Positions 23,657-26,430 of a stretch of 27,724 nt of DNA are shown piece by piece. This stretch comes from a virus. Location of the stretch: positions 1 through 27,724 of IMG/VR virus record IMGVR_UViG_3300036398_002841. One strand, 5' to 3'. Position 1 is the first letter of the stretch; every line of letters starts with the position of its first letter. The notes below the pieces were generated by a model. That model did no database searches and was not told where the DNA came from. It saw nothing but the letters and a program-made list of their open reading frames with translations. A program made the translations under genes and the position numbers.

Positions 23657-23675
23657 AAGTCATAATTATGTGTGC

Positions 23676-24104
23676 ATGGTATGGCTTTTTGAAGATAAAA
23701 CGGTTGAGATACTACCCGAAGATTGTGTTGGGTTCGTCTATATGATTACAAACACAGTGTCTGGCCGAAAATATATTGGAAAAAAGTTAGCCAAATTTTC
23801 AAAAACTACTGTTAAAACTGTAAAACTAAAAAATGGCTCAAAAAAGAAAAAGAAAATCAGAAGTAAAATAGACTCAGACTGGCAAGAATATTATGGCTCA
23901 AACGACGAACTCAAAAAAGACGTAGAAACCCTAGGCTCAGACAAATTTAAAAGACAAATACTATATTATTGTAAATCAAAAGCTGAATGCTCATATATTG
24001 AAGCAAGAGAACAATTTAGACACCAAGTCTTAGAATCAGATGATTATTATAACGGGCATATACAAGTCCGTGTCCATGGCTCTCACATAAAAGGTCGTTT
24101 ATAG
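23676..24104 (+). CDS. GIY-YIG-like nuclease-fold protein
   Basis: 142 residues from ATG at 23676; a GTG at 23670 would add two residues, but relatives typically begin like MVWLFEDK. The first conserved block is VGFVYMITNTVSGRKYIGKK (about 18-37), the GIY and YIG elements of the GIY-YIG fold. It is followed by a lysine-rich loop (NGSKKKKKIRSK), WQEYYGSNDELKKDVETLG, and ECSYIEAREQF, where the Glu may be the metal ligand. Similar short proteins are widespread in T4-like phages and may act in DNA processing; they are not necessarily homing enzymes. It sits 19 nt after the radical SAM gene and 2 nt before the SGNH-like gene, within the same operon. Confidence 0.75.
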   Translation: MVWLFEDKTVEILPEDCVGFVYMITNTVSGRKYIGKKLAKFSKTTVKTVKLKNGSKKKKKIRSKIDSDWQEYYGSNDELKKDVETLGSDKFKRQILYYCKSKAECSYIEAREQFRHQVLESDDYYNGHIQVRVHGSHIKGRL

Positions 24105-24106
24105 CA

Positions 24107-24952
24107 ATGAAAAAGATAGTATTTGCTGGCTGTTCATTTACCGCAGGACATGGATGGGATGACATTGACCCTATTACGAGTTCTCAAATTGAAGCCAAAG
24201 ACTATCCAGGCTTGTGGGTAAACTTATGCCAAAAAAATATTGATAGATTTCAAGAGCTTGAATTGGAAAACTTAGGTGTAGGCGGAGCAAGCAATACAGA
24301 AATTTTTGAAAATGTAACTAGATTTATGTCTAAACATAGCAAAGACATTGACACTATTTTTTGTCAATGGACCGCAGCTCCAAGATATAATTTTAATGTT
24401 GGGTTTGAACTATGGAATACTACCGAACATTTTAATTTGGCTTCTATGCTATCACACGATGTTAATCTTAATCAAGGCAAATCCTACTCGCGCGAATACA
24501 TAAAAGATTTAGTTAACAGATTATTAGTAATGCACCATATACACTGGGAAATTTTAAAAATTGTTGACTATACTAATATTATTACTAGACTAGCAAATTT
24601 GTTAAATATCAAGAATATATTTTTTATAAACGGGTTGTGTCCTTGGGACAACAACTATTTTGTTGAACTATCAAATGTTGATCCTGAAAGTTATACACCT
24701 TTTACAAAAAAAGAAATTTTAAACATAGAAACTAGAGACGACAAAGACATTCACACACTTTACAAATTGGCACATTCACAATACAACTCAGCTGGCGGAA
24801 TTAATAGCAATTTATGGATTAATTTATATCAGTCATTTCACTCACTCACAATAGACAAAAATTTTGATCTAGTACATCCTGGCACACAAAGCAATCGCAC
24901 TTTTTTCAACATCATTACAAATAGGCTCAAAGAGTTACAATTTATCAAGTAG
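24107..24952 (+). CDS. SGNH/GDSL-like hydrolase domain protein
   Basis: 281 residues, last gene of the plus-strand operon. The block I motif is at the N-terminus, KKIVFAGCSFTAGHGW (Ser10), followed by NLGVGGASNTEIF (about 55-67, block II Gly/Asn) and a C-terminal FDLVHPGTQSN with the Asp-x-x-His pair (block V). These are the catalytic elements of SGNH esterases or acyltransferases, though phage members may be divergent. IDTIFCQWTAAPRYNF (about 84-99) replaces the usual block III. No signal peptide is visible, so it should be cytoplasmic. Together with the EKTFKP-type gene it hints at carbohydrate or acyl modification, which is inference. Confidence 0.7.
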   Translation: MKKIVFAGCSFTAGHGWDDIDPITSSQIEAKDYPGLWVNLCQKNIDRFQELELENLGVGGASNTEIFENVTRFMSKHSKDIDTIFCQWTAAPRYNFNVGFELWNTTEHFNLASMLSHDVNLNQGKSYSREYIKDLVNRLLVMHHIHWEILKIVDYTNIITRLANLLNIKNIFFINGLCPWDNNYFVELSNVDPESYTPFTKKEILNIETRDDKDIHTLYKLAHSQYNSAGGINSNLWINLYQSFHSLTIDKNFDLVHPGTQSNRTFFNIITNRLKELQFIK

Positions 24953-25316
24953 TAATTGCAAGCACAAGCATCAAAATCGTGTGCCCTACACCTGGTTGAA
25001 ATATACGCAGGGATGGAAGTCTCGTCGCTACAACGAGCACTCAACTACTACCCGCAAGGATGAAGATCGCAAATGCCGCGATTTAGTTGTTTGAACAGGA
25101 TTCATAAAGGCTAAAAAGACGCGATAGCGATATCGCACGTTTACAATGCAGGCTGATATTTGTATTGTAGATCGCCGTTGTATAAAGACGGAGCTCGAGG
25201 TACCGGACAACCGCCTCTGTAACGCTCTAATATCAGTGACTGTGCTACTCAGATGAAGTACATATATTTTTTGCCCGCCCTGGGCAAAGAGTGACCAATT
25301 AATCTAGATGAAATCT
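24953..25316 (+). ncRNA. Hairpin-dense intergenic region, candidate structured RNA
   Basis: There is no convincing gene in these 364 nt, between convergent genes. By hand count 24961-25260 is 46% GC, richer than the neighbouring genes appear. Short stems follow one another: GTGT/ACAC (24979-24991), CTCGT/ACGAG (25021-25037), ATCGC/GCGAT (25066-25082), GCGATA-GCGA-TATCGC with a GNRA loop (25121-25136), TACAAT/ATTGTA (25142-25169), CCGT/ACGG (25175-25191), GAGG-tac-CGG-acaa-CCG-CCTC (25197-25217) and TTTGCCC/GGGCAAA (25270-25288). The GNRA loop exists only on the plus strand, which favours that strand, where read-through from the upstream operon would supply it. No tRNA, tmRNA or known riboswitch signature is recognised. 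Alternatives are regulatory leftovers or a decayed small gene. Confidence 0.45.
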
Positions 25317-25348
25317 AAAAAAGCATTGATGAGCGAAGCGAAATCAAT
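25317..25348 (-). terminator. Intrinsic terminator of the gp26/gp51 unit
   Basis: Read on the minus strand, a stem ATTGAT/ATCAAT (25348-25343 with 25330-25325) closes a loop with an inner GC-TTC-GC mini-hairpin and is followed by GC and six T residues (25322-25317). It lies 19 nt past the gp51-like stop. A second hairpin just upstream of it, AGACTAAC/GTTAGTCT with a 3-nt loop (25349-25367), touches that stop codon and may reinforce termination. Confidence 0.7.
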
Positions 25349-25366
25349 AGACTAACGAAGTTAGTC

Positions 25367-25597
25367 TTAAAAGAATGGCATTCCTGATTTCTTGGCAGTT
25401 TCTAAATTATCTTTAATGATTTCGTTTATGATACGGCGTTCATCTGATCCCAGAAGCATAGCGTCGTTATAAGATAAACCGCCGCGCATGTACCAGCACA
25501 TTCTTAGTAGATCTTCTTTAATATCTTTAACTTGTTTTTCGTAGCTCTTAACTAAGCCTAAAATACCTTCGGCGTCAAGTGTTAAGAGCTGTTGGCG
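25367..25597 (-). CDS. 51: gp51-like baseplate hub assembly domain, made by -1 frameshift from gp26
   Basis: 76 residues plus stop. LRMCWYMRGGLSYNDAMLLG, then SDERRIINEIIKDNLETAKK and SGMPFF, is the pattern of the short gp51-like (baseplate hub assembly catalyst) protein of marine T4-like phages. The frame has no ATG, GTG, TTG or CTG before the internal ATG at 25501, which would cut off its first 32 residues; the frame is closed by a TGA just upstream of the slippery site. It joins gp26 exactly in the -1 frame at the heptamer 25603-25597, giving a predicted 354-residue fusion (278 + 76). gp51 acts in baseplate hub assembly and is absent from T4 virions, so the fusion is probably a chaperone-like assembly factor. 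Confidence 0.85.
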   Translation of the reverse strand, partial: RQQLLTLDAEGILGLVKSYEKQVKDIKEDLLRMCWYMRGGLSYNDAMLLGSDERRIINEIIKDNLETAKKSGMPFF

Positions 25598-25603
25598 AAA
25601 AAA
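25543..25603 (-). promoter_or_regulatory. Programmed -1 ribosomal frameshift signal
   Basis: The minus strand reads T TTT TTC (25603-25597) with zero-frame codons TTT and TTC, a classic X XXY YYZ heptamer. A 6-nt spacer GCCAAC (25596-25591) leads to a perfect 10-bp stem: AGCTCTTAAC (25590-25581) pairs with GTTAAGAGCT (25552-25543) across a 28-nt loop that can form an inner GCC/GGC pairing. The stem contains the gp26 TAA stop. Heptamer, phase, spacing and stem all match known bacterial and phage -1 signals. Confidence 0.88.
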
Positions 25604-26430
25604 CTTGCATAATCAAACGTTAACGCAACATCGTAGGTTTTACTACAATTTTCACATGTTCCTGTTTGTGATTTAAGTGCACCTTCTTGACTAAGCTCAA
25701 CTATGCGCTCTTGTAATTTTTTACAAATTTCTGAATCACAATTTAAATAGAATTCTTGAATAAATTCTGGTTCTGACACTATAGTACCACTATCAACTAG
25801 CTCAATAAACTGTGTGCTATCTACTAGTAGTTTTGCATTTAAATCAACTAATCTAGTAATGTGGTGCTTATATGCACTAATTTTTGTTTGATCTTCTGTA
25901 TTGTCACTGACAATGTTTTCCAACATACGTTGTTGTTCATATGAAATTTTACTAGTTTCATTTAAACTTGCGTAAGTTTGTGGCTTGATTTTGATTCTAA
26001 TTTTTTCATGTTCTAATTTTTTATCGTAGTCAGGACATTGTATGCTATCTAGATAGCCTGTTAATTCAACTTCAAATCTATTTTCTGTCTCGCAATGCGG
26101 GCATTTAGTGTCGATGTTCATGGTATTGCCATAAGACGCTACCCTAATCGCAATTAAAATAGCATCTACATCTGTACTAGGAATTTCCCACGCATCGGTA
26201 ATGTGTGGACAACAACTTTCTATAACATCTACTACACCTTGGCCGTTTAATAATGCGTCAGGTGTTTTTAATAAAATCTCATCTTTTGCTGTCATTGGAT
26301 ATATTGGTAATTCACCTGTTTTGGGTATATCCAACCCAGCAGTCCAGTGCTGGCCATTGCTTGGTAATCTTAGATAAATTCCTGGTTGTCTAAAATGCGC
26401 TCGCAAAGGATTGAGAGGTTTTTGATCCAT
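25582..26430 (-). CDS. 26: Baseplate hub assembly protein gp26 (T4_baseplate family)
   Basis: 282 residues without frameshifting (T4 gp26: 208). The family pattern is N-terminal: LRAHFRQPGIYLRLPSNGQH, then GELPIYPMTAKDEILLKTPD and LLNGQGVVDVIESCCPH (about 10-75). Two CxxC pairs, C110-P-H-C113 and C259-E-N-C262, could form a zinc ribbon bringing the middle and C-terminus together. ATG at 26430 is preceded by AGGA (26442-26439) and a perfect late promoter on the same strand. At codon 278 the ribosome meets the slippery site: most ribosomes should add A-N-S-S and stop, a fraction should continue into the gp51-like domain. The short form plus long fusion beside a tape-measure-like gene parallels lambda gpG/gpGT. 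Confidence 0.92.
   Translation of the reverse strand: MDQKPLNPLRAHFRQPGIYLRLPSNGQHWTAGLDIPKTGELPIYPMTAKDEILLKTPDALLNGQGVVDVIESCCPHITDAWEIPSTDVDAILIAIRVASYGNTMNIDTKCPHCETENRFEVELTGYLDSIQCPDYDKKLEHEKIRIKIKPQTYASLNETSKISYEQQRMLENIVSDNTEDQTKISAYKHHITRLVDLNAKLLVDSTQFIELVDSGTIVSEPEFIQEFYLNCDSEICKKLQERIVELSQEGALKSQTGTCENCSKTYDVALTFDYASFFANSS

Follow-up and report, generated by a model that had tools for sequence, protein, structure and literature searches.

The window analysed here, a 27,724-nucleotide stretch of viral DNA (IMG/VR record IMGVR_UViG_3300036398_002841), contains one large gap between its long open reading frames (ORFs). Following the ORF that ends at position 24952, 629 nt separate it from the next long ORF, whereas the remaining inter-ORF gaps measure at most 63 nt. 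About 25367-25590 of this gap is a -1-frame continuation of the convergent gene gp26, leaving a non-coding remainder of about 24953-25366. A first-pass annotation of the sequence had singled out this region as the sole large non-coding stretch and had proposed that it encodes a new, hairpin-rich phage RNA with no coding frame. Its reported GC content of 46% was reproduced (46.0% for 24961-25260, and 44.5% for 24953-25316, as compared to 35.3% for the window). The minimum-energy single-sequence fold of the gap has an energy of -100 kcal/mol (z = -2.3), a value equalled by 3 of 100 shuffles; because this energy is only mildly unusual, hairpins alone would not be compelling, and comparative evidence from covariation is decisive for a structured RNA.

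The genes bordering the gap have features of their own. The gene at 23670-24104 belongs to PHROG 447 and directly precedes the RNA in most relatives; it also matches homing-endonuclease families, and its label, 'NAD synthetase', looks wrong. Between this gene and the RNA, the ORF at 24107-24952 has a GDSL/SGNH-like start (MKKIVFAGCSFTAG) and is probably a recent insertion, as its relatives occur in only about five of the loci compared. On the minus strand (25367-26430), gp26 is followed by an ORF of ~70 residues in the -1 frame (...LGLVKSYEKQVKDIKEDLLRMCWYMRGG...KKSGMPFF*), with a slippery AAGTTTTTTC near 25590 at their junction. It is likely that gp26 is extended by a programmed -1 frameshift of the kind known from tail-assembly chaperones; matches to the gp26 family in related loci also often fall in two ORFs per locus.

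The Rfam search suggested by the first-pass annotation (cmscan, Rfam 15) returned a single match in the window: positions 24957-25092 (136 nt) correspond to RF01718, Polynucleobacter-1, with a score of 102.8 bits (gathering threshold, 37) and complete coverage of model positions 1-141. ARAGORN found no tRNA or tmRNA gene in the window, in keeping with the earlier statement that the region is not a tRNA, a tmRNA or a known riboswitch. The RNA is a structured phage RNA, as claimed, but not a wholly new one. Polynucleobacter-1 was catalogued in 2010 from Burkholderiales and from fresh water and estuary, and Table 1 of that study marks it 'y' as an RNA and 'y' as cis-regulatory, i.e. as a probable RNA that is probably cis-regulatory (PMC2864571); the cis-regulatory position is this listed 'y' and has at no time been a curated criterion for membership in the family. 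The window RNA shares with RF01718 the full-length, above-threshold match and the fresh-water association. However, the model ends at 141 nt, whereas the window RNA begins a few nucleotides earlier and runs ~220 nt further, and it differs from the entry in having three pseudoknots, in being phage-borne and in having no co-directional gene behind it, since the downstream gp26 lies on the opposite strand. An Rfam orphan known since 2010 is therefore roughly the first third of one ~365-nt phage RNA, the remaining ~220 nt lying outside the model. Rfam covers neither the 3' ~220 nt nor any of the three pseudoknots, and it also lacks the alternative 5' domains, the phage context and the multi-copy jumbo-phage relatives described below; the open-access literature that was searched, whose coverage is incomplete and no proof of novelty, contained no account of either the complete RNA or the related jumbo-phage RNAs.

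The RF01718 core pattern was found in 81 stretches of IMG/VR contigs. Nearly all of them continue into a 3' region of ~220-250 nt that contains compensatory changes, the exceptions being contigs truncated within it. Helices were sought without bias in 61 non-redundant sequences and then counted formally on an alignment (A1); twelve were supported, three of them pseudoknots. In A1, 93.3% of the cells are paired, as compared to 35.8-45.5% with slid partners; double changes occur in 43 of 63 pairs, 458 cells are changed on both sides, and none of 500 shuffles reached the paired, double-change or both-side counts. In all intact relatives that were found, the 3' ~220 nt are conserved and show covariation, and no codon-level conservation was seen. 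These data show the window RNA to be conserved, folded, phage-borne and non-coding, as the first-pass annotation had proposed. Its features are as follows.

24949-25316, plus strand: whole structured non-coding RNA, ends approximate (61-sequence alignment with covariation; 3'-half model)
24957-25092, plus strand: 5' domain, RF01718 (cmscan match given above)
24949-24953 with 25027-25031 in the P3 loop, plus strand: pseudoknot PK0 (92.9% paired; double changes in 3 of 5 pairs)
24962-24966/24980-24984, plus strand: helix P2 (99.7% paired; 4 of 5 pairs covary)
25021-25023/25035-25037, plus strand: helix P3 (96.6% paired)
25042-25047/25084-25089, plus strand: helix P4 (100% paired; 3 of 6 covary)
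25065-25070/25078-25083, plus strand: helix P5 (99.7% paired)
25121-25136, plus strand: hairpin Pa, GNRA-capped, GCGATA-(GCGA)-TATCGC (sequence; column coupling 25122/25135)
25139-25145/25166-25172, plus strand: hairpin Pb, with the PK1 5' strand in its loop (7 of 7 pairs covary in a hand-run alignment)
25154-25159 in the Pb loop with 25230-25235, plus strand: pseudoknot PK1 (97% paired; double changes in 6 of 6 pairs)
25177-25181 (GUUGU) with 25207-25211 (ACAAC, Pd loop), plus strand: pseudoknot PK2 (97% paired; 3 of 5 covary)
25190-25194/25224-25228, plus strand: helix Pc (96.1% paired; 4 of 5 covary)
25198-25201/25213-25216, plus strand: helix Pd, within GAGGUACCGGACAACCGCCUC (100% paired)
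25251-25257, plus strand: twin heptamer 1, AGATGAA after ACTC (identical to twin 2 in 61 of 61 relatives)
25269-25289, plus strand: hairpin Pt, TTTTGCCC..GGGCAAAG, between the twins (94.7% paired; 3 pairs covary)
25306-25312, plus strand: twin heptamer 2, AGATGAA after ATCT (same 61-relative comparison)

Pb is misaligned in A1, where only 63% of it is paired, and its full support comes from the hand-run alignment. PK0 is missing from the Rfam structure of RF01718. Because its 5' strand is 24949-24953, the RNA starts within the last codons of the upstream ORF and its 5' end overlaps the stop codon of that ORF, slightly before the start at 24953 that had been annotated. The earlier picture of short stems lying end to end is only partly retained: the GNRA-capped stem (25121-25126/25131-25136, loop GCGA) and the nested GAGG..CGG/CCG..CCTC stem are both present, but most of the fold is longer-range and includes the three pseudoknots. 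Resemblances to RNase P, T-loops and tRNA mimics were seen by eye only and were set aside.

The 3' half of the RNA also occurs on other 5' domains. A search with the 3'-half pattern alone gave at least 191 strict matches; the RF01718 core motif is present in at least 84 and absent from at least 107, some of which are diverged RF01718 members and some coding chance matches (L094, L176 and L191). R1, a covariance model of the 3' half built from the window's clade, recognizes many of the matches that lack the core motif over its full length (E-values from 9e-17 to about 1e-2). The coding loci L094 and L191 matched neither of the 3'-half models R1 and R2, and L176 yielded a 17-nt fragment only (R2, E 0.5). 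At least 13 loci of the 3'-half family have no Rfam match at all, and of the two copies on a 302-kb contig (G006), one has an RF01718-like 5' domain, which at 35.5 bits falls slightly short of the threshold, while the other lacks it. Because the 3' core occurs with and without RF01718, even within G006, different 5' domains are exchanged on a common core. Several TTAGGCACATTGTTCGCATTAGGCGATC-type direct repeats lie ahead of the RNA in G006 at 275500-276500 (L298). Two contigs from beta-proteobacterial MAGs, one of them Aquabacterium, combine the core motif of RF01718 with a 3' half that has diverged (L083 and L084; R2 E-values of 0.011 and 0.0016, respectively); they are possibly mis-binned phage contigs and a hint to the host.

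In T4-superfamily jumbo phages, the position of the RNA is conserved, with the gp55-gp47-gp46 operon on one side and the convergent gp26 on the other. ORF clustering placed a phrog_447 (GIY-YIG-like) homologue just upstream of the RNA in at least 154 loci, gp46 upstream in at least 131 and a convergent gp26 downstream in at least 123, while in a minority of relatives (at least about 35-40) the ORF downstream is co-directional. In the window's clade, no promoter can be recognized immediately upstream of the RNA. RNA-bearing contigs of the family reach 262-355 kb, and by gp46, gp26 and gp55 the nearest isolates are jumbo myophages (PA5oct-like phages, Atu_ph07 and RaK2/121Q/CBB/GAP32/BF/Munch/XaC1); the phage of the window belongs to an uncultivated T4-superfamily jumbo-phage lineage.

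A blastn search with the window RNA and the group B RNAs found no match in isolated phages, and relatives in isolates (group C) were located through synteny. In 121Q, CBB, BF, GAP32, XaC1, Munch and XbC2, an unannotated gap of about 680-840 nt is present at the same site beside gp26; the corresponding region of Hallingskeid is annotated with small hypothetical ORFs only. The gap sequence of 121Q recurs in 4-5 copies per genome in 121Q/CBB/Munch-like phages, on a single strand and mostly 50-100 kb apart (in BF, at 30, 93, 175, 259 and 335 kb), and in CBB each copy has its own unannotated gap. RaK2/121Q-like phages, whose hosts are E. coli, Salmonella, Pectobacterium and Xanthomonas, carry RNAs of ~500-600 nt at the syntenic site and 3-4 others (L202 and L205-L212, with paralogs at L256-L292), in unannotated gaps of ~650-850 nt in the records inspected. 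RaK2 (L207) has lost the RNA at the syntenic site, where its gap measures 365 nt, and carries copies near 191.6 and 280.0 kb. Most isolate copies are preceded by a TATAAT-type promoter and lie mostly within runs of co-directional genes.

The isolate RNAs show covariation of their own (95.1% of the cells paired versus 35-46% when slid; double changes in 31 of 40 pairs). In order, their elements begin with Pb, whose loop holds the PK1 5' strand; then come the PK2 strand CCGUUG, Pc, Pd (with the PK2 strand CAACC in the loop) and a variable hairpin, and after these the 3' strands of Pc and PK1, followed by a short motif that recurs on the far side of a GC hairpin. The helix order Pb(PK1 5')-PK2 5'-Pc-Pd(PK2 3')-Pc 3'-PK1 3'-twin-hairpin-twin was found independently in the window's clade and in the isolates. 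The freshwater models R1 and R2 do not score the group C (121Q-like) RNAs. In the reverse direction, a model built from the isolate RNAs only (R3) gave eight matches on 304 kb of freshwater loci, six of them on the RNA core in register; it matched group B cores in register with E-values of 4.6e-4, 0.0034, 0.041 and 0.042 and a relative from the window's clade (L010) with an E-value of 0.35, also in register, all of these E-values being rough, and it did not match the window itself. Common descent of the freshwater and isolate RNAs is likely, although not proven. R2 found no match in PA5oct, Atu_ph07, SCTP-2, Phosso, XacN1, Vibrio 2.275.O, Stenotrophomonas CM1 or ICP1, a weak negative as this search had no positive control.

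The most distinctive feature of the RNA is a heptamer that occurs twice, once where the PK1 3' strand is followed by ACTC and once where the GC hairpin is followed by ATCT. The two copies are identical within each of the 61 sequences of the window's clade, whereas nine different heptamers occur between RNAs; under shuffling, a mean of 9.9 and a maximum of 22 sequences matched. The variation is narrow, as positions 3, 4 and 6 are invariant and the changes are mostly purine swaps. The two paralogs of G006 carry AGATGAA and GCATGAA, each self-matched, and the identity rule therefore acts within the molecule and not the genome. Isolate paralogs share a shorter motif (about GUCAR, and UUCAAG in RaK2), and in two of the inspected copies its two occurrences do not match. 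A partner search by covariation in the alignment found no column pairing with the heptamers, and antisense copies are not enriched within the RNA or within 3 kb. A third-strand switch, in which one anti-sequence alternates between the twins, was accordingly rejected, as was a CsrA sponge (several GGA motifs, CAGGGAUGGAA), since the heptamers read AGAU in many members. Twins that are identical but not complementary suggest two equivalent docking sites or a direct symmetric contact, although the identity could instead reflect some other partner. We know of no other RNA family with a constraint of identity rather than complementarity, and its strictness makes it both unusual and sharply testable.

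The window RNA is built from a clade-specific RF01718 5' domain, a double-pseudoknot 3' core and twin heptamers flanking a GC-rich hairpin. With a probability that we judge to be about even, it is an autonomous ~365-nt RNA of a jumbo-phage superfamily that serves as a trans-acting scaffold with two equivalent docking sites. In the window's clade, the transcript of the gp55-gp47-gp46 operon would probably release the RNA from its 3' end during infection, as no promoter stands out just upstream of the RNA, whereas the enterobacterial relatives would be made from their own promoters. The RNA would be a rigid, trans-acting scaffold whose double-pseudoknot core holds the two heptamers as equivalent docking sites; these would either touch each other directly or each be bound by one of the halves of a symmetric partner (a protein dimer or an RNA oligomer); the exchangeable 5' domain would set clade-specific interactions. 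More tentatively, and with the chances rather against it, these RNAs could form a new class of large jumbo-phage RNAs, found across many hosts with 1-5 paralogs per genome, in which the identical heptamers contact each other or a symmetric partner and possibly build an assembly of RNA that very large phages require.

It is less probable that the RNA forms a homo-oligomer on its own, a cage or ring of the GOLLD/ROOL kind in which the twins are intermolecular contacts. Identity without complementarity would suit such symmetric contacts, and GOLLD has a similar design, with a conserved 3' region and a variable 5' region (PMC12286853), a phage-borne origin and multiple pseudoknots. Like GOLLD and ROOL, the window RNA is phage-encoded, structured and pseudoknotted and has no known function; it differs from them in its smaller size (~365 nt in the window's clade), in its twin heptamers, in the absence of a tRNA-gene link in the window and in having no Rfam relation to either. 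The GOLLD and ROOL models gave no gathering-threshold match in the window, the group B loci or the isolates, and none at E-values up to 1 in the group B and C paralogs.

The position of the RNA in the window's clade, starting at the upstream stop codon or immediately behind it, between convergent genes and with no clear promoter, would also fit a stable 3'-UTR tail that terminates and protects the upstream early-operon mRNA and blocks read-through into gp26. We regard this as unlikely, as the 121Q-like relatives are free-standing, have promoters and occur in 4-5 copies mostly among co-directional genes, and a terminator would not need three pseudoknots, exchangeable 5' domains and twins that are strictly identical. 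It is quite improbable that the heptamer is a doubled seed of an antisense or guide-like RNA pairing with an RNA-specific target: twins that are identical in each RNA and differ between paralogs of one genome are what such an RNA would show, but the narrow, mostly purine-swap variation is unlike that of a free guide, and no antisense match is enriched within 3 kb. A cis-regulatory leader, as the 2010 table (PMC2864571) suggested and as the minority of relatives with a co-directional downstream ORF would allow, is very improbable, since the next gene is convergent in the window, which also makes a cis-riboswitch unlikely at this locus, and at gp26 in at least 123 loci.

A further comparison is offered by ICP1, which produces an abundant, orf-less ncRNA of ~800 nt (PMC7567579). 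Both are orf-less phage RNAs of unknown role, that of ICP1 being abundant; the core model finds no match in the ICP1 genome, and no relation is shown. As the superfamily is present in cultured phages, including 121Q-like coliphages, one of which is recorded on E. coli K-12 MG1655, the function of a large phage ncRNA becomes testable in a model host.
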